From the NCBI GenBank assembly GCA_014843695.1, contig CM026387.1, forward strand, positions 75,766,013-75,830,012: 64,000 bases of DNA, written 5' to 3'. The notes under the pieces were generated by a model, which was given only the letters and a program-made list of their open reading frames with translations, did not search any database and was not told the origin of the DNA. The DNA is from Archivesica marissinica (lineage: Eukaryota > Mollusca > Bivalvia > Venerida > Vesicomyidae). Below, piece by piece: positions 10,011 to 63,903 of the stretch. Positions within the stretch are counted from its first letter, which is position 1. The number at the start of each line of letters is the position of its first letter. The position numbers and the translations under genes were made by a program.

Positions 10011-10587
10011 GAAACCTAAAGTTATTAAACAACGTGCAAGGAGTAAGATATGGGTATGACTATAGTGCGGACACGACCGCGTTTTGCGCGAAATCAACAC
10101 ACTATGTTTAGTTTATACAAATTAATTTTAGTTCGATTGCGAAATAAGTTCTTACAAATACAAATACATAGCATTTATATAGCGCACACATTAAAACGTA
10201 TTCTATTGCGCTTCACAATTACATATGCAATTTTAAACATTTACACATGACAATAATATATGGAAATATAAATAAAAATGTATACATATATAGATATACC
10301 TAGGATTTTAGTAATTGGATAAGAACATATTTTATCATGATATCTACACCATTACAGTATATAAGTGAATGATTGGATTAGCGATAAAAGTAGCAATATA
10401 GACCAAAACACCGCCGTGAGAATGACAACCGTGATGTGGCCAGTACAATGATTGGGCCGGTACAGTGATCCGCCCATCACCATACGACAGAGCTCGAACC
10501 CAGGAGAATGCCCATACAACACTTCGCTCGTCAATCCAATACTTATAAAGTCGATCTTTGATCTTATTGAACACAACTATTGTATTT
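10011..10587. other. Upstream flank of TNPO3
   Basis: Single-copy AT-rich sequence. Open frames here have no recognisable homology. Confidence 0.4.
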
Positions 10588-10762
10588 TTGAGCCATTACG
10601 ATTGTGCCCTTAGGCAAGGTATTTAAATTCCACATTGCCTCTTCTCTCTCCCTCGTGGCGATGGATTCCATCAGGAATGAGGTCTCGAGAGTGATTTATA
10701 TAAGTTGAAATAACTTGTTTCGCAATCGAGCTAAAACTAAATTTGTATAAATAAAAAACAAA
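10588..10762 (+). mobile_element. SINE-B copy 2, 5'-truncated
   Basis: It starts at the body block 'GAGCCATTACGATTGTGCCC' and keeps 'GGCGATGGATTCCATCAGG', 'GAGGTCTCGAGAGTGATTT' and the 3' end. The tRNA head is missing. A short inverted fragment of the same family lies at 10814-10850 ('ATTAATCACTGTCGAGACC'). Confidence 0.75.
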
Positions 10763-10948
10763 CAAACAAAAACTTGTATCATCACAGATGTTATTTTTGT
10801 ACAAGGAGCACAACACTTACAACTTATATTAATCACTGTCGAGACCTCATGATTTGATTCACTTCACAGGACCAGTTATTGCGGAACAACGTAATGTCAT
10901 GGATGAACATACGTTTTGTAAGTCGTTTATTGTCAATTTTTATTAACC

Positions 10949-11171
10949 TGTGGTGATAACTCCGGTTCGGTACGGCTTGAGGACGGGGAAATATCACCAC
11001 GGCAGCACGAGACGAGATTATGGGAGATACGACGAGACGAGAGAAGACTGAAGATGGAGGCTGCCCCGCTCAACGTTCTTTAATGACAGAACTCAGAACA
11101 ATGCAGATAGTACATTCGAGACAACCGGTTGTGCAAGCAAAGACAGATACAGATAAAGCAATACTGACTAG
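10949..11171 (+). mobile_element. 5' LTR of Gypsy element, first segment
   Basis: Begins TGTGGTGATAACTC and matches the 3' LTR at 15917 over most of its length, including 'GGTTCGGTACGGCTTGA', 'CACGGCAGCACGAGACGAG' and 'GTACATTCGAGACAACCGG'. It breaks off inside the LTR at 11171. The kinase start codon follows at the next base. A second copy of the LTR end occurs at 12747-12825. Confidence 0.85.
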
Positions 11172-12746
11172 ATGCAGCTCACAGGTAGCCAAGCTGCGGG
11201 CCATACGACAGCCAGCTTCAATACTGGTTCCCTGCAACAGACAGAACATTACATATCGAATACGGCGGACGCATTGGGAAGAGGGGCCACAGCAGTCGTT
11301 TATTTCGGAAGGCACAAGGTTTCTGGTGATGTTTGTGCCGTGAAGGTGTTTCATGAACGTATTGTTCGTCATAATATTATGTTATCGACACGACAACGCG
11401 AGATCGAAACCTTACAAAGCTTGCAACATGACAACATTGTTAAACAGATTGCATTAGAAATAGAGACTGTTACTGGTAATGCGATACTGGTTATGGAGTA
11501 TTGTTCCGGAGGATCGCTTCACTCTATGCTGGAGCAACCCCAATATGCATTCGGATTGCCAGAAGCAGAGTTTCTCTTGTTCCTTAGACATACTGCCGAT
11601 GGTATGCGCTATTTACATTCACAAGGGTAGATAAATAGGGACATCAAGCCGGGAAACAACATGCGATTTATTTCCGAGGATGGGAGATCTTTGTACAAGA
11701 TAACAGATTTCGGTGCTGCTCGCGAATTGCAAGATGACGAAACGTTTATGTCCATTTATGGAACAGACGAATATCTGTTTCCCAAATTGTACGAGCAAGC
11801 TGTGTTGTGGCGTCCGGGAGTGCACGAGTTTGACGCGTCTGTGGATCTTTGGAGTCTATGAGTGACCATTTACTACGTGGCTACTGGTCAGTTGCCATTC
11901 CAACCGTTTGGTGGTCGCAGTAATGCAACTACAATGCATCTCATCACCTCACAAAAAATGTCTGGCATTCAGAGAACTTCGAATGGACATATAGAGTGGA
12001 GTAATACGCTACCAGATACATGTCAATTATCAGAACATCTGCAGTCAGTGTTGATCAACATGTTAGCTGGATTGATGGAGATGGACTCACAAAAGATATG
12101 GATATTTGATTAATTCTTCCACATCGCTCATAACATCAACAGTAGATTAACACTGAACATCATTTTTTGCGATTCATTTTGCGTTTATGCGTAGTACCGT
12201 GGTTTATTAGAATGCGCCGTGCGGCCCAGTACTTCCGGCTTCAGCATTCGAGGTTTCTGTTGGGGTTACCTCACCCTTAGGCTAGGACTTTTAAGGCGGT
12301 TCATATATTCGCCTGATGCACCCATTGTGGGACACGTGGAGTATTTAATAGGAGTAGCTTTGCCTTGTGCTATCCTGCCCCGTCCTGGTAGGTACACCGC
12401 CGTATGGTCCGGGACTGCTTATTTGATTCACAGCTAACCCCCATATCCGAGGGCCGTTCCCCTATCCGCCACCTGAGGACCCGCTGGGTAGGGGATGGTC
12501 GCCCCACTACTGAATTGGAAGCAGCATGGACCCAGCCACTGAACATATTTTCCTGTTGCACGACAGAGCATATACGTCTCTATGTAAACATGACGGACAC
12601 ATATACCAAAGTGCAAGAGCGGATAGCTGCTGAGACAGAATTACCAGCAATGAACCAGATGATCCTGTGGCATGACTAATTGTTGTCTGATGTTATCGAA
12701 CAAACTGCGGAAGTTCAAACGTACCCACAATATGTTACAAGAACTA
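11172..12746 (+). pseudogene. Intronless TBK1/IKK-epsilon-like kinase captured in the LTR element
   Basis: A processed copy of an IKK-related innate-immunity kinase. Numbered from the ATG at 11172, it shows the glycine loop 'LGRGATAVVY' (35-44) and the ATP lysine in 'CAVKVF' (K58). Further along come 'NRDIKPGN' (catalytic loop, His of HRD replaced by Asn), 'DFGAARE', and the activation segment '[10 protein letters not shown]' with the serine equivalent to TBK1 Ser172. A ubiquitin-like domain ('IRLYVN', 'ETELPA', 'ILWHD') follows. The coiled-coil half of TBK1 is absent; the coding part runs straight into LTR sequence at 12747. All introns are missing. One frame holds from 11172 to about 12150, but stops occur at 11628, 11859, 12111 and 12677, all explicable by point changes, and a 370-bp insertion splits the ubiquitin-like part. 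TBK1 and IKK-epsilon phosphorylate IRF3-type factors downstream of STING. Which paralogue donated this copy cannot be told. Confidence 0.88.
12151..12551 (-). mobile_element. 370-bp retroposed insertion inside the kinase, with 15-bp target duplication
   Basis: The flanks 'CACTGAACATCATTTT' (12151-12166) and 'CACTGAACATATTTT' (12537-12551) are a target-site duplication. The 370 bp between them are GC-richer than the surroundings. Read on the minus strand the insert ends in A-rich sequence with an AATAAA, as expected for a retroposed RNA or a truncated LINE. I do not recognise the family. Its removal puts the kinase reading frame back in register. Confidence 0.7.
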
Positions 12747-12825
12747 GACAGATAGTACATTCGAGACAACCGGTTGTGTAAGCAATGACAGATAAAACAA
12801 TACTAAATAGGTAATACGCTTTATA
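12747..12825 (+). mobile_element. Second copy of the LTR end (probable R-U5)
   Basis: Matches 11103-11171 and 16070-16147 ('GTACATTCGAGACAACCGG', 'CAATACTAAATAGGTAA'). It sits between the kinase and the primer-binding site, so it is the genuine 3' end of the 5' LTR. Confidence 0.85.
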
Positions 12826-12837
12826 TGGTGGCAGCGA
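12826..12837 (+). promoter_or_regulatory. Primer-binding site, tRNA-Leu type
   Basis: TGGTGGCAGCG directly follows the LTR end. It is complementary to the 3' end of metazoan tRNA-Leu (..CGCTGCCACCA) and is a common Ty3/Gypsy minus-strand primer site. Confidence 0.8.
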
Positions 12838-13174
12838 AGGATTTTGACTTACGTCGAGTGAAGGAAATCCCCTGATAAAGTGGATTTGTTTTTTGGAAAC
12901 CACGTGTTTCAAGATTCTACATTCTCGGGGATTATTTTGAGAATATTGTATTTGTCTAACCGGTTGAGAAGTTGTGAAGACTAGTGTCCAGTTAAAGACT
13001 GTGAATAGTTCGTTTTTGTTGCGTTATTGACATTTGTTTACGTAGACAATTGTTGATATCGTCAACATTGGCACAGGCAAGGCCGTATCGAGCGTGGGCA
13101 GCACTAATATAGTTCGACATATGCAAAGTCCCTGGTTGGCTATATTTAGTACAGTATATTATTTTTTCATATGT
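12838..13174 (+). other. Gypsy leader / residual internal region
   Basis: Sequence between the primer site and a pogo-like fragment. No gag, protease or reverse transcriptase motif is visible. These genes have been deleted. Confidence 0.5.
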
Positions 13175-13385
13175 ATAGTGAAACCCCTCAAAACCGGAAC
13201 CCCTCTAAATCGGAATTCCCTCCAAACCGGACAATTTTCGCGGTCCCGATATTTTCCATTCTTTGTTCATTGTAAAAAAACCTCTCTAAACCGGAACCTC
13301 TCTTTTCCGAAAACCGGAAAAGTTTTCGGGACCATCTGTGCACATTTCTATTGCAAATTACCCCTGAAAACCGAACAGCCAGCGG
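13175..13385 (+). mobile_element. pogo/Tigger-like DNA transposon fragment inside the Gypsy remnant
   Basis: Starts TAGTGAAACCCCTCAAAACC and repeats 'CTCTAAACCGGAA'-type blocks, resembling CAGTGAAACCTCT termini of Tigger-like MITEs. A matching right terminus is not clear, so limits are approximate. Confidence 0.4.
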
Positions 13386-13407
13386 AGTAAAATCCGGATC
13401 CTAAACA

Positions 13408-14433
13408 ACCTTTGTCTCACCTTCAAAGAGCCACAAGGTCAGCTAGCCAGGTGGATGGAGGAGTTGTCCTAGTACAACGTGATCCTGAAACACCGGGCTG
13501 GCCGGAAGCATGAACATGCAGATGCATTGTCCCGAATACCCGAAGAATGGGGGGGGGGTGAAATGTCTAGCATATGAGGCCAACGAAAGGTTGAGTGAAT
13601 TACCTTGTGGGGGATGTGACCATTGTAAAAGGGCTAACGAAAATTGGGGATCGCTTGTGAGGGATGTCGATGAGGCATTTGCTTCGACAAGGAATGATGT
13701 CAAAGATGGATATTGCGGTTCCATCGATGTCGGTGAGGAAATTTCTTTGACGAGTAAGGATGTCAAAGATGGATATTGCGGTTACATCGATGTCGGTGAG
13801 GCAATTTCTTTGACGAATAGAGGTGTCATAGATGGATATTGCGGTTCCATCGAGGTCAGTGAGGCAATTTCTTTGACGAATAAAGGTGTCAAAAATGGAT
13901 ATTGCGGTTCCATCGATGTCGGTGAGGCAATTTCTTTGACGGGAAATGGTGTCAAAGGACGAGATTGCGGTTCCATCGATTCGGATGATCACCAGCCATT
14001 AATAGTGAGGAATGGTACTGCAGGAAATCGTAAAACAGGTAGAAGTGATAACGAATCGACCAAAGGAGCACAGGTGCTAGAAGTGAGAGACATGGACCAA
14101 GATCAACCAGAATGTAATCTTGGGAGTTGTTCAAAACGTGGAGAACATGCTGATGTGGAGATCATCATGAACAACGGTGAATTCCAAATGCTGAGCTGTA
14201 AAGCGGCACAGAATGTGAATTCAAATGTATTAATACAACCATCGTGTTGGGGCTTCACCGTGACAGAAACTAGAGAGGCTCAAGCCAAAGATGAAGATCT
14301 TGAGATAATTCTCGATTGGCTTGACAACAAACAAGAGCCTAGCGAGAAATTATTGTTTCTTGCAAGCCCTGCGACAAAGTCGTACTGTCTAAACAAGGAA
14401 CACTATTATCTATTAATAGACAAGGTACCCTAG
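13408..14433 (+). pseudogene. Gypsy pol: RNase H end and RH-integrase linker with internal repeats
   Basis: The RNase H tail is read from about 13418: 'FKEPQGQLARWMEEL', an in-frame TAG, then 'YNVILKHRAG' and 'HADALSRIPEEW'. At a run of ten Gs (about 13549-13558) the frame shifts. The next frame is open to 14433 with 'LPCGGCDHCKRANENW', the Cys-rich linker common between RNase H and integrase in mollusc Gypsy elements. Residues between about 13690 and 13980 consist of five copies of a 21-residue unit ('GVKDGYCGSIDVGEAISLTN'). The upstream RT half of RNase H, RT, protease and gag are all missing. The element could not replicate on its own. Confidence 0.8.
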
Positions 14434-14467
14434 GTCCCTAAACAAGGGGAGTTCGGAGGACAAAGAT

Positions 14468-14957
14468 TTGGATATTCCAAGAAGTTTGAAAGAGTTAGCT
14501 CTGCAGTGGAATCATGATTTGCCCTCTGCAGGTCATCAGGGAGTTGCAAGGACCAAGGCCAGGATGAAAGATAAATTCTTCTGGTATGGCATGAGTCAAG
14601 AGATAGCTAACTTCGTGACAACGTGTGATCTATGTAGTCGAAACGAGATACGGTCCCTGTGGGATGAAGGAATAACAAGCAGGGGCACCCATGGAGAGGG
14701 TACACATATAGTTTATGGGTCCATTGCCCCGTACACCACTGGAAAATGAACACATCCTCATGATGGTAGATCAGTTCACCAAATGGGTGGAATGTGTGCC
14801 TTTGCCGTCTCAGACAGCGGAAGTGACGGCAAGGGCGGCGGTAAATCAATTCTTTTCTAGGTTCAGGTACCCGCTGCAGTTGTTTTCTGATCAAGGTCGT
14901 AATTTCGAATCTAAGCTGTTTACTGCTCTACAAGGCTCTACAAATCCACAAAACTAG
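14468..14957 (+). pseudogene. Gypsy integrase: zinc domain and partial catalytic core
   Basis: The H2C2 zinc-binding domain is visible in frame 1 of this block: H in 'ALQWNHDLPSAGHQG', second H in 'GHQGVARTK', and 'CDLC'. The frame then shifts near 14650-14715 and the core continues with 'MMVDQFTKWVECVPL' (first catalytic Asp) and 'LFSDQGRNFES' (second Asp). The stretch with the catalytic Glu is deleted before 14998. It is enzymatically dead. It follows the RNase H linker after a further frameshift at 14433. Confidence 0.85.
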
Positions 14958-14997
14958 GACAACACCATATAAAGCTGTAGCAAAGCTTACTAGTACA

Positions 14998-15507
14998 ATG
15001 CAAGAAGCACATAGTGCAGCGAGAAAGACTTTGAAGGTTTCCTTGAAGCGGATGAAAAGGAATTATGACCGTAGAATACTGAAAAGGTCGTATGAGGTAG
15101 GCGATATAGTCTATCTATTAGATTCGGCTACGTTGAAAGGTAAGTGCAAGAAGTTGTCTTCCCCTTGGAAAGGCCCAGCAATAATTGAGAAGAAGTTTTC
15201 AGTCTCTCGTTTTAGGGTCAAATTGTGGAATAACGTATTGGTAGTGAACCATGATCGACTGAAGCCCTGTAATGACAGGAAGCTGCCAGCTTGGATCAAA
15301 CAGTGGAAAGAGGCGCCAGGTGACGATTCGGGTCCTGCTCAAGCAGATGGTGAATTGTACTGTTTATGTAGGAAGCCATGGCAGGGACGGTTCATGATCC
15401 AGTGCGACTACTGCGATGTATGGTACCATGGGTCGTATGTGGATGTGACAGCGACAGACGCTCTGTCCATAGATAAGTACCGATGTGGAAATTGTCAAAG
15501 GAAATAA
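14998..15507 (+). pseudogene. Gypsy integrase C-terminus fused to a PHD finger
   Basis: An open 169-residue segment. The first ~110 residues are the integrase C-terminal domain ('YEVGDIVYLLDSATLKGKC', 'LSSPWKGPAII', 'VVNHDRLKPC'). Then comes a PHD-type zinc finger: 'LYCLCRKPW', 'MIQCDYCDVWYHGSYV', 'YRCGNC'. Ligands C-x-C, C-x2-C, H and the final C-x2-C are present, but the sixth ligand expected after the His is Tyr ('GSYV' where families have 'xxCV'), a one-base change from TGT. PHD fingers read histone H3 tails, so in an integrase the module may guide insertion, much as chromodomains do. The ATG is not a true start: this is the end of a polyprotein. Confidence 0.83.
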
Positions 15508-15916
15508 TCCATGTGGGTAGTTATTGTATTCTTTCAGGCATGGCAATGGAACCAGTCAGAAAGAATGACTTCCTGGACGAGGTGGAGCAAAGCTCTATGC
15601 AACGTCTGTTGGTGTCTTCTAGTCGGCTAGTAGTGCTCAGCATCTGATAGCTTTTTGCATGGCATGTTCTGGAGTAACGCAGCCAACCAAGGAAAGTGAG
15701 ATATCATGGTAGTTTCTTACATGCCATAATACATTGATAACGGACAGTGTGAAATTTCAATCTGATAGTTATTTACATGTCAGATCAACGGAAAAAATCA
15801 TCTCGATTCAGCTCTTCGTTAGCTTCTTACATGTCGGATTACTGTGTGGATATAAATCAACCGGACTGGTTCTTGAATTACTATATGCCAAGCACTTTTG
15901 ATAATGCGGGGGAGAG
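15508..15916 (+). other. Gypsy 3' untranslated region and polypurine tract
   Basis: Non-coding except for short chance frames. The purine run 'GCGGGGGAGAG' (about 15906-15916) directly precedes the 3' LTR and is the likely plus-strand primer. Confidence 0.65.
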
Positions 15917-16147
15917 TGTGGTTATAACTCGGGTTCGGTACGGCTTGATGCCGGGGAAATATTACCACGGCAGCACGAGACGAGATTCTGGGAGATACAA
16001 CGAGACGAGAGAAGCGTGGAGATGGAGGCTGACCCGCTCAACGTTCTTTCATGACAGAAATCAGAACAAGACAGATAGTACATTCGAGACAACCGGCTGT
16101 GTAAGCAAAGACAGGTAAAGCAATACTAAATGGGTAAGACGCTTTAT
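15917..16147 (+). mobile_element. 3' LTR of the Gypsy element
   Basis: Begins TGTGGTTATAACTCGGG and ends near 'AAGACGCTTTAT'; about 231 bp. It is close to, but clearly diverged from, the 5' LTR pieces. No matching target-site duplication was seen beside 10949 and 16147. Confidence 0.83.
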
Positions 16148-16448
16148 TATATTATATAAGACGCCTATTCCAGCAACGTAAGATCCATCCCTAGCATCTG
16201 TATATACTAGGTACCCATCCAGTATCTCCGTATAACGCCAAAATCGGTGCGAAACGGTGCACGCCTAGGTAATACCGTATGGCCCTGTGTTGTATGTTGT
16301 CAATCTATATTAGGGCCACTTGACCACCTAGTTTCAATCTTTATTATAGTCTCGTCTATGTACATAGCATTTTATAAAACAAAGCATGAACAATAATCAA
16401 CAGTACATAGCCATTCAATGTTAATGAATTATATGAGAATTATATGAC
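16148..16448. other. Unassigned, single-copy
   Basis: Flank of the Gypsy element. Nothing recognised. Confidence 0.4.
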
Positions 16449-16455
16449 ATTTATA

Positions 16456-16771
16456 GGGGCGTAGCCAGGAGGCAAATTATGTGCAGGCCCGGGTAAAGAA
16501 TGTTGAGTGAGTGTAGCGAACAAGGTTGCTAGGGGGTCCGGGGGCATGTACCCCCTGAATATTTTGTTTTTTAGGATGTAATTTCCCGCATTCTGCTGCA
16601 TTTAAAAGACAAATTTGGACATGTTTTTATAACAAATAAACATGACAATACACTGTTCTGCTTAGCTATACATGTACATCAAAAGCAATAACAATTCTAT
16701 ATATTTTTTTGTTGTTGGTCAAAATGATGTGCAGGCCCGGGCCTTTTGGCCTAATGGCAGCTACGCGCCTG
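16456..16771. mobile_element. hAT-like MITE
   Basis: Left end GGGGCGTAGCCAGG and right end GGCAGCTACGCGCCTG are inverted repeats. The flanks share ATTTATA (16449-16455 and 16772-16778). CAGGSGCGTAGC-type ends with 7-8 bp duplications are typical of hAT elements. Confidence 0.65.
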
Positions 16772-53487: not shown

Positions 53488-54936
53488 TTACCGAACAAGA
53501 TTTTGACTGTCGGACGTACTGCCATTTTGAGTTGATGAATTCCCATCAAAGTTAAAGTCAAGGTTGGAATCTAGGGCCAGTTCATGACGTAGAAGTTGCT
53601 CAACATCGTAGTCGAGATCAAGCATATTGTTAGTGTCGATCTGTTCCTCTAGACTCATATTACTTTCAGTGCGAACCGGACCATTCACCGCTTCAGAAGT
53701 ATTTGTCGGTTGAGAAAAGATTACCATATTTGTCTCGGGCAAAGCATTAATTTGGTTATTGTTAACTACAGTATCTATACTTGGCATTGGAGAATTTGAG
53801 AACATATTGAATTGTTCAAACGGCTGTGGCTGGCTAGTGCGTACCTGAGGCTGATATGCCGATGAATTGATGTGCTGCGTGAGCGCCGCTCGCAACATCG
53901 AATCATTTGGCGCTTCTAGGCACTGCTGAAGAAGAGATCGGCCACTTCCTATAACACCCATCGGAACCTGGGGCTGTACGTGATTCATTGGCACTTGATT
54001 AGCCGGTGACGGGATTGGTGATGATTTGATTGGCTGTGGCGAGTATCTCGGTCTCGGTGAGTAGTTTGAGGGACTCAGCTGGGGAGATCGTACTGGTGAA
54101 AGTTGGGTGTTAATCCCTAATATTGTTGAGCCAGGGCTGGTCATGGTTTGTGGTGATAAAATCTGCCGCTGAGACATCGCATTATCCTGATATAGATGAT
54201 TCGGTGACATATTTGTATAGTTACGCGATTGGCTCGTCAGTGTATCCAGATTTAATACTGAGGACTGATGTGAGTTCTGTTGCTGCAAGTGATCGTTATA
54301 CGATGGTGGGGCGGGAAGGTTGGAAAATGAAGGACCGTCGAAATTGTTCTGTGAATTAAACTGAATCATAGACCCTCCAGAAAGTAATTGTTGTTTCAAT
54401 GTCATGTCAATATCATTAGAGTCACCTGAAAGACCTTGGCTTATAGGCTCAGACTTTATATTAAGTCCTCCAACTAAAGAATCAACCAAAGAATATGCCT
54501 CGTTACTATTTGAATTAAAGTTTTCCGCACGTAATTCAGTAGCCCATGGAATTGGAGACATTGGTGGCACCTGGCCGTCATGTAAATCTGGTTCAACAGC
54601 AGCTTGTATCGGAGACAACCTCCCACAGCTGCTTGCGTTGCTTTCAGCTCGAGTGCGAAATTCAGGGCTCAAATTAAAGCTATAATGTAAGTCTTGAAAA
54701 TCTTCACCCGACAAGGAAGAGCCATTTTCCTGAGCAGCTCGAATGGCTTCTATACGTTTTTTAATCCGACCCCTCTTTTTTTCTAAATTTTTTGTTTCCA
54801 TGCTGCCAGCACGACGTCTAGGCGCTTTCCCTGGTTTGGCATCTGGGTTGATAACCCACCATGAACTCTTGCCAGTACCTTCATTTTGAATGCGCATAAA
54901 TCGACTGTGAAGTGACAGATTGTGCCGAATGGAATT
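53488..54936 (-). CDS. FOXO: FOXO transcription factor, last coding exon
   Basis: Encodes 482 residues plus a TAA stop. The acceptor TTTTCAG precedes '[13 protein letters not shown]', the forkhead recognition helix; vertebrate FOXO genes have an intron at this same point. Exon residues 1-31 finish the forkhead domain (WW at 26-27). 'PRRRAGSME' (Ser45) and '[10 protein letters not shown]' (Ser99) are Akt-type R-x-R-x-x-S sites matching FOXO1 Ser256 and Ser319. A basic stretch 'KKRGRIKKR' (53-61) fits the nuclear localisation signal. 'GRLSPIQ' follows the second Akt site as in vertebrates. The acidic C-terminus with 'LDFNFD' (about 459-464) is the transactivation motif. FOXO is the nuclear effector of insulin/PI3K signalling, excluded from the nucleus when Akt phosphorylates these sites. 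The first exon, with the N-terminal Akt site and most of the forkhead, is not in the window, so intron 1 exceeds 9 kb. The frame stays open 69 codons into the intron by chance. Confidence 0.96.
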
Positions 54937-55143
54937 CTGAAAATATATGGAAAAACTTGTGTAGAATATAGTATAGAAGTTATGCAATTCTGAACATATA
55001 TGAAAACTTGTGTAGAATATAGTATAGAAGTTATGCAATTCTGAACATATATGAAAACTTGTGTAGAATATAGTATAGAAGTTTATGCAATTCTGAAAAT
55101 AAACTTGGGTAGAGTGAAGCATAATGGAATTCTGAAAATACAA
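54929..55143. repeat. ~52-bp tandem repeat that copies the FOXO splice acceptor
   Basis: The junction block 'GGAATTCTGAAAATA' (minus strand: TTTTCAG then AATTCC) at 54931 recurs exactly at 55126. Variants 'GCAATTCTGAACATATATGA' recur at about 54985, 55036 and 55088. Each copy keeps a TTCAG acceptor-like sequence followed by AATT. Confidence 0.9.
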
Positions 55144-55176
55144 GTGAAGTTATTGGCCTCAGCTACACCTTCAGAA

Positions 55177-62428: not shown

Positions 62429-63903
62429 CTGAGTCAAAAAAGAAACGATACCAAACTAAAAATGATGTAAAACGGATAAAACCATAGAAAGGTTTAATAT
62501 ATTATTACGTATCAGTACCGGGTATCTTATTGCAACGTCAGCCAACCATAAACACAGGTAAATAAACACCCGATAATCCTGGAACGCCGAATTTCCGATT
62601 TGCACGTGCTCCTCAACGAAGACAACTTCCTACACATGTACAAATCGGAAAACCGGTTTATTGTACTGGTATTGCATTATCATCGAGGAAAACACCTTAC
62701 ATACCCATTGTTACCTTTAACAAAATGCCTAGGCTAAACCGCAATCAGAGAATGCGTGCCATTGGCATGATTGAACGCGGTTTACGTCAGCGTGACGTCG
62801 CAAATCGACTCGGGGTTACGCGGATCACGATAACACGTCTACTTCGACGTTATCGAACACATGGATCGGTGGACGACCGTCCAAGATCTGGTCGACCACG
62901 TGTGACGACGAGTGAACAGGACCGTCACATTCGGACGTCACATTTACGTGACCGGTTCCTACCTGCTACGCACACAGCTGCCGTTACTACTGGGATGACC
63001 AACAATCGCATCAGTGCACACACAGTCAGGAACCGGCTCAGTGAACGTGGCATTCGTGCCTATCGGCCATACGTTGGGAATGGACGACGGAACGTGCTCG
63101 CTGGACTCGGTTACAGTGGAATTCGGTGATGTTTAGCGATGAATCACGGTTCTGTTTGCGTCGAGCGGATGGCAGAGAGCGGGTATATCGCAGACGCGGT
63201 GAACGTTACGCCGACGCATGTGTACGTCAGGTCGATCTGTTCGGGGGCAGAAGCGTTATGGCGTGGGACGGTATCACCTTCGGCAGTCGCACTGAACTGT
63301 TAGTGATGGACGGGAACCTAAACGCCCAGCGGTACTGTGATGAGATCCTTGCGCCAGTTGTTGTGCCGTTCTTTAACGCCAACAGAAACGTCACACTGTT
63401 CCAACAGGACAACGCCAGGTGTCATACTGCTCGGATTTCCACCACATTATTGGAGCAGAACAATATTGAAACCCTGCCGTGGCCTGCTTTGTCACCAGAC
63501 TTGTCACCCATAGAACATTTGTGGGATACGTTAGACCGCCGCGTCAGACGACGTCAGCCGGTAACGTTAAACCAACTGAGGGATGTTTTGCGTCAGGAGT
63601 GGACAAATATTGACCAGCAAGAGATTCAGACACTCTTCCGTTCGATGCGACGGCGGTGCATTGCAGTGAGAGACGCAAATGGTGCCCATACTCGGTATTG
63701 ACGTCTGTGTGAAAACTCCATTAGACCCCTGTCCGACGAATTACGTCATCACGCAGCAGACAGTTTCGGAGGCTCATTATGCTTTATGTGCTCCTCTTTC
63801 AAACATGTTGGACTATCATCTTATGAATTTTCAAAGAATTTTCTTAATAAATGTTGAAATTATAGACACATAAACACCAGGTATCGTTTCTTTTTTGACT
63901 CAG
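62429..63903 (+). mobile_element. Tc1-like DNA transposon, full length
   Basis: 1,475 bp with perfect 24-bp terminal inverted repeats beginning CTGAGTCAAAAAAGAAACGA and TA duplicated on both sides. It carries a broken transposase. The perfect ends point to recent insertion in FOXO intron 1. Confidence 0.95.
62725..63701 (+). pseudogene. Tc1-like transposase, broken by an internal deletion/frameshift
   Basis: Cut-and-paste transposase of the Tc1/mariner superfamily. The first 134 codons carry the paired-like helix-turn-helix DNA-binding region ('LRQRDVANRLGVTRITITRL', 'GRPRVTT'). After 'RPYVG' (about 63070) the frame changes and some 15-20 residues usual in the family are missing. The second frame is already open before the ATG at 63126 and reads on with the DDE catalytic core: first Asp in 'MFSDESRF', second in 'FQQDNARCHTA', Glu in 'LSPIEHLWD', a DD34E arrangement. 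Both halves are otherwise clean, so one small deletion seems to have killed it. It could still be mobilised in trans because the ends are intact. Confidence 0.92.

Follow-up and report, generated by a model that had tools for sequence, protein, structure and literature searches.

A decayed TBK1-type kinase retrocopy inside an LTR element of Archivesica marissinica, and an LTR base that meets host exon starts at three loci

The stretch of DNA analysed here (the window) comprises 64,000 nucleotides of the vesicomyid bivalve Archivesica marissinica (assembly GCA_014843695.1, CM026387.1, positions 75,766,013 to 75,830,012). At positions 10949-16146 of the window, on contig C2, lies a broken long terminal repeat (LTR) element that carries a host kinase as cargo. 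Between the 5′ LTR and a second LTR tail lies the cargo (11172-12749), a TBK1-type kinase that lacks introns and retains part of a ubiquitin-like domain. The LTR stops in front of the kinase at a splice-donor-like point, and the same LTR base is joined to the exon starts of another host gene at two further loci. The features of the element are listed below, with a slash marking a junction and CDS standing for coding sequence.

10949-11171, plus strand: 5′ LTR (c1), from its TGTGGT start to the splice-donor-like point, lacking the 13-base end that family LTRs have (GTAAGACGCTTTA in the majority of copies)
11170-11172, plus strand: 5′ seam ACTAG/ATGCAG, LTR donor point joined to the predicted parental acceptor (GATTATCAG/ATGCAG on C13), AG being common to both sides
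11172-12166, plus strand: first piece of the kinase retrocopy, with stops at parental codons 151, 228 and 316, a 6-base insertion and a 12-base deletion
12167-12535, plus strand: abundant 369-bp repeat, a later insertion, bounded by the duplicated sequence CACTGAACAT(C)ATTTT (12151-12166, 12537-12551)
12552-12749, plus strand: second piece of the kinase retrocopy (start of the ubiquitin-like domain, end in mid-CDS), with a stop at parental codon 376
12740-12749, plus strand: 3′ seam, a 10-nt microhomology with one mismatch (kinase AGAACGAGAC, LTR AGAACAAGAC, window AGAACTAGAC)
from ~12740-12745 to 12823, plus strand: second LTR tail (c2), donor read through (AAATAG/GTAATA) as far as the LTR end
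12826-12840, plus strand: putative primer-binding site TGGTGGCAGCGAAGG, directly past the LTR and assigned by position alone
13422-13559, plus strand: frame resembling an RNase H tail, with one stop (frame reading)
13663-14040, plus strand: 63-bp tandem repeat of ~6 units, in-frame within an open frame
14489-14647, plus strand: remnant of the integrase zinc-binding (H2C2) domain (PF17921, E 4.1e-16)
14712-14936, plus strand: remnant of the integrase core (PF00665, E 2e-9)
15361-15495, plus strand: pol-terminal PHD finger (PF00628, E 2.7e-7)
15917-16146, plus strand: 3′ LTR (c3), cargo-free

The original prediction, made from the letters of the window, placed the cargo between two pieces of the same LTR and upstream of the primer-binding site, and the coordinates of the LTR copies c1, c2 and c3 bear this out. 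The LTR pair is present, a polypurine run precedes the 3′ LTR, and the putative primer-binding site is near-identical at the 5′ ends of the C6 and C2144/C8/C5 copies. Pol remnants and a 3′ LTR had also been expected behind the cargo. This part held for the integrase H2C2 and core domains, the PHD finger and c3. No gag, protease or reverse transcriptase (RT) was seen in the three forward frames of 13391-15930, and 12841-13390 has no open frame of 120 amino acids. Of the pol order RT-RNase H-integrase that marks Ty3/Gypsy elements, integrase parts were found in the window copy, and the element is putatively of Gypsy type. The frame at 13422-13559 contains a HADALSRIP motif, which we take to be a mark of RNase H; a Pfam search of this frame gave no match. 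An Rfam scan of 10500-16500 gave 0 matches up to E 0.5. By eye, a family copy on C16 (C16:37779846 onward) shares the in-frame 63-bp tandem repeat.

The identity of the cargo, proposed as an intronless TBK1-type kinase with a ubiquitin-like domain, was confirmed by domain matches to Pkinase (E 4.7e-19) and TBK1_ULD (E 1.1e-5; 25.6 bits, under the curated cut-off of 31) and by the properties of its parent gene. The matched part of the parent (399 amino acids) fitted TBK1 in PDB (E 3.7e-116) far better than IKK-alpha/-beta (E 5.2e-27 for IKK-alpha). Apart from the window, the search of the 1.54-Gb genome with 11172-11772 (6 of 6 candidates scored) hit a single gene on C13, in five exons and in one exon end that is repeated. 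Nine exons of this C13 gene match the retrocopy in order; all nine have an AG acceptor and eight a GT donor, the match ending in the ninth exon. On this exon-by-exon match, the donor of the cargo is the intron-containing C13 gene. In that gene, at C13:11127808-11128022, an exon end with its splice donor is tandemly repeated in the next intron (one more copy at 91%, then weaker), which might permit exon length variants.

The kinase had been assigned to 11172-12746 as one continuous piece. The coordinates were right; the continuity was not, since the 369-bp repeat interrupts the cargo at 12167-12535. The ends of this repeat are duplicated over ~15 bp, a 1-base insertion in the retrocopy falls at its edge, and its 39 other scored copies are 97-99% identical (40 of 814 candidates scored). 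Between cargo and parent, 59 substitutions were counted at 1186 aligned sites (23 synonymous, 32 nonsynonymous and 4 stops), along with the 6-base and 1-base insertions and the 12-base deletion. The synonymous rate of 0.075 and the nonsynonymous rate of 0.041 are as expected of one free copy and one constrained parent. The kinase cargo is a decayed pseudogene, a dead passenger of the element.

The copy number of the cargo was assessed genome-wide. For each seam the matches contained a single row reading across it, that of the window (5′ seam, 40 of 51 candidates scored; 3′ seam, 28 of 28), while the kinase pieces searched were found in the window and the parent only (including a search with 4 of 4 candidates scored). 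Within the reach of these searches, the kinase is a one-off. For a mobile kinase, recurrence of the LTR-kinase junctions at several loci had been anticipated; a single locus was found, which by the original prediction's own test means a one-off event. Its picture of a transducing element therefore stands for the capture of a host TBK1-type mRNA by an LTR element and falls for the spread of the cargo in copies, with one spanning row per junction. The further suggestion, that the cargo acted as a decoy or regulator of immune signalling, is hardly credible. The identity of the cargo is the only point in favour of a functional kinase decoy spread by the element, and it is contradicted by the single locus, the four premature stops, the indels, the truncated domain and the near-free-copy pattern of substitutions. 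The innate-immunity reading of the cargo is to be dropped. The kinase junction is unique, yet the type of seam is common to two further loci, on C4 and C16.

The family LTR holds a GT splice-donor-like site (AAATAG/GTAAG) 13 bases before its end. The LTR match in the window stops at TAG; at this place the sequence of most other family copies is AAATAG/GTAAGACGCTTTA. The 30 top-scoring LTR rows (from 40 scored of 197 candidates, counting the window's rows and near-identical copies) fall into 18 that continue into the tail (17 of them with GT), 8 with a break at another place and 4 that stop precisely at the donor, namely the window, C4 and two rows in one C16 element. The kinase cargo begins at the AG acceptor predicted in the C13 parent. 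Past its seam, C4 follows the exons of a C10 gene one after the other at ~82% (7 of 7 candidates scored), and its cargo begins at the exact exon start TTGCAG/TGTCGGTG. The C16 cargo begins at the exact start of the following C10 exon, TTTTTAG/GTACACAAAG (also read as TTTTTAG/GTACACAAAGACATACC). Introns are present in the C10 host gene and absent from the C4 and C16 cargo. The order at C16 is similar to that in the window (LTR-cargo-LTR), and a second LTR copy inside the C16 element repeats the exon-2 seam and diverges after ~24 bases. Thus, in each of the three LTR-to-host-exon loci examined, the start of a host exon follows the same LTR base. Because C4 and C16 have their host gene in common, the three loci are counted as two host genes and as two or three events. 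By simple arithmetic, a random breakpoint would fall at an exon start with a chance of ~0.0075 in the kinase and, if 5-10 exon starts are assumed, of 0.007-0.014 in the C10 gene.

The pattern search for LTR ends followed by a base other than G revealed no new capture, with 39 matches (at most 2 mismatches) against 41 for a control pattern; cargo exons beginning with G are caught by it only as a mismatch. Sorted by comparison with the LTR rows, the 39 matches comprise 18 family LTR tails, 14 copies of one other repeat and 7 taken as chance without inspection. The region C19:38964900-38965400, considered as a further capture, was rejected, as the donor is read through there as usual.

These observations bear on plain LTR-mediated retroposition, in which microhomology switches would have occurred on both sides of the kinase and the AG match of the 5′ seam would be due to chance. 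The two bases AG are indeed common to both sides of this seam, and the published model, in the available part of its description, requires only microsimilarity (PMC5408686). In three out of three loci examined the seam combines one and the same LTR base with the start of a host exon, which disfavours a chance AG and makes this explanation improbable.

The 3′ seam is of a different kind. The parent match covers positions 44-195 of the 3′ seam query and the LTR c3 match begins at 186, so that the overlap equals the ten bases of the microhomology, as expected of a template switch. There is no poly-A at the 3′ end of the kinase, and the cargo ends in mid-CDS. The absence of poly-A is a mark of LTR-mediated retroposition. 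The window shows an intronless copy of an intron-bearing gene inside an LTR element, the lack of poly-A and the 3′ microhomology that characterize LTR retrocopies; at the 5′ seam, AG only is shared. Retroposition of the kinase mRNA by a long interspersed nuclear element (LINE) into an old LTR could account for the direct LTR repeats that flank the cargo if they were a long target duplication of ~70-75 bp. Known target duplications of LINE-type insertions are much shorter. The original prediction had named ordinary LINE-type insertion, with its own short target duplication, as its counter-case; the missing poly-A, the 3′ end within the CDS, the 5′ end at a predicted exon start and the homology between LTR and kinase at the 3′ seam contradict the LINE route, which we regard as very improbable.

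The reading that in our judgement accounts best for both seams, and that we hold to be highly probable, is that a transcript started in the LTR was spliced into host exons and that the chimeric mRNA was then reverse-transcribed. In this scheme, an LTR-initiated transcript would use the donor-like site near the LTR end and be spliced to the host TBK1-type gene at its first coding exon, yielding an LTR-kinase chimeric mRNA. This mRNA would be reverse-transcribed by the machinery of the element, and the growing complementary DNA (cDNA) would switch between the LTR tail and the kinase at the 10-nt microhomology. The outcome would be a kinase lying between a donor-terminated LTR and a second LTR tail with its primer-binding site, and the captured product, found once, would then have decayed to a pseudogene. 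From the 5′ seam, which coincides with the LTR donor and with the predicted AG acceptor, we infer the chimeric RNA; the use of donor and acceptor and the order of the template switches are likewise part of the proposal.

Several points weigh against this proposal. The use of the splice sites is read from genomic sequence, and the acceptor at the start of the kinase cargo is itself a sequence-based prediction. A search of the 49 kb preceding the C13 parent in the assembly found no family LTR (the best match was at chance level, E 0.23); the driving LTR would therefore be absent, lost, polymorphic or farther off, and trans-splicing may instead have produced the LTR-kinase chimera. The ends of the window element have no 4-bp target duplication in common (AACC against TTAT), while by-eye inspection of other family copies shows one (the paired C6 LTRs have CTAG in common). 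Neither an LTR tail nor a primer-binding site is visible by eye behind the C4 cargo, so the end structure is not common to the loci. Since the host gene is the same at C4 and C16, both loci may derive from a single LTR insertion that gave two splice products, and the C10 gene, at ~82%, may be a relative of the true donor. Moreover, under standard strand transfer the cargo would be expected in both LTRs, and c3 is without it. The LTRs c1 and c3 agree at 139 of 152 upstream and 57 of 65 downstream sites, and the tail form of c1 is 6 bases longer than that of c2 and c3. On this single informative indel, c3 may or may not be derived from c1/c2 through collapse of the direct repeat. The presence of cargo in one LTR would reflect either its loss from the other by recombination between repeats or elements, or the patching of cDNA into an existing LTR at break repair.

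The latter possibility also stands as an explanation of its own. The same splicing step would have produced the chimeric LTR-kinase cDNA, which would have been patched into the 5′ LTR of an integrated element during repair of a DNA break, with LTR homology on the left and the 10-nt microhomology on the right. This accounts for the restriction of the cargo to the 5′ LTR and for the ~70 bp of LTR duplicated around it, and repair by capture of reverse-transcribed spliced mRNA has been reported in mouse zygotes, according to the available part of PMC4516963. The similar LTR-cargo-LTR order at C16 suggests an element-linked process rather than break repair, and the absent target duplication is left unexplained by break repair too. 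A patch of this kind is rather unlikely, though it deserves more weight than either form of retroposition discussed above.

The same LTR family carries a second kind of cargo. Family copies contain a TatD DNase gene (PF01026, E 3.7e-19) before the 3′ LTR, at the envelope position; it is nearly whole on C9 (L034, 288-1202) and C4 (L029, 301-1200) and partial on C1 (L041) and C5 (L043). The genome search with TatD gave at least 43 matches (40 of 57 candidates scored), with 31 near-full unbroken rows including the query, the other 30 at 87-93%. The 600 bases downstream of 10 sampled TatD rows hold the pre-LTR family sequence in 10 of 10 cases and the LTR start in 5 of 10 (4 by BLAST and 1 in which the stretch closes with the first 13 LTR bases). 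The TatD cargo of this family is truly mobile. Its best protein match is a TatD-like protein of Ruditapes (53%), and the other named matches are from molluscs, a brachiopod and two bacterial metagenome bins. Tandem repeats of ~72 bp lie between TatD and the 3′ LTR (L058-L065), and their number apparently varies among copies. As a tentative and rather doubtful idea, the LTR donor may be the family's own splice site for TatD, the misfiring of which into neighbouring host genes would make the family a standing gene-capture device; the kinase and the C10 gene would then be failed captures, whereas TatD, captured long ago in this way, would have been retained and multiplied. If this were true, host exons driven by the LTR would be packaged, copied and re-integrated by this family.

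Elsewhere in the window, the minus strand of 53491-55149 carries a long open frame with a partial Forkhead match (E 5.5e-9) and a FOXO-TAD match (E 1.2e-5, under the cut-off), which is probably an exon of a FOXO gene. Helix-turn-helix and DDE_3 frames at 62566-63701 resemble the transposase of a DNA element.

Retroviruses can transduce cellular genes via LTR-host chimeric spliced RNA. The proposed capture in the window resembles it in that an element-host chimeric spliced RNA would be recombined back into the element; it differs in that the donor lies in the LTR ahead of the primer-binding site, the carrier is putatively of Gypsy type, and the kinase product is dead and single. Among the papers listed in the literature search, none dealt with a TBK1-bearing Gypsy element, with splice-defined capture by an LTR retrotransposon or with TatD in LTR elements, which is a weak negative. 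LTR elements are described as retrocopying host mRNA by microsimilarity switches (PMC5408686, describing Tan et al. 2016). As far as the available part of that source goes, the window agrees with LTR-mediated retroposition in its processed host gene within an LTR element, its junction microhomology and its partial mRNA, and departs from it in the 5′ junction of the family, which resembles an LTR-to-host-exon splice junction (at 3 of 3 loci) and not a microsimilarity switch. Maize Bs1 is likewise an LTR element with host-gene retrocopies, but it is a plant element with three host genes, as the same part of the source describes it (PMC5408686). LTR retrotransposons of bdelloid rotifers contain, in the available part of PMC5408684, extra non-envelope enzyme open reading frames (one of them an exonuclease) at the ORF3 position, expressed from spliced messages; they parallel the TatD gene of the present family, not the kinase, and TatD is not mentioned in that part of the source. 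Summarizing, the acquisition of host genes by LTR elements is usually inferred from blurred junctions, while one family here keeps base-exact seams for two host genes that point to a step from LTR donor to host acceptor, and splice-driven capture becomes testable. The retrocopying of host mRNA has itself already been described; a retrotransposon family in which the LTR donor defines the seam again and again did not turn up among the papers listed.

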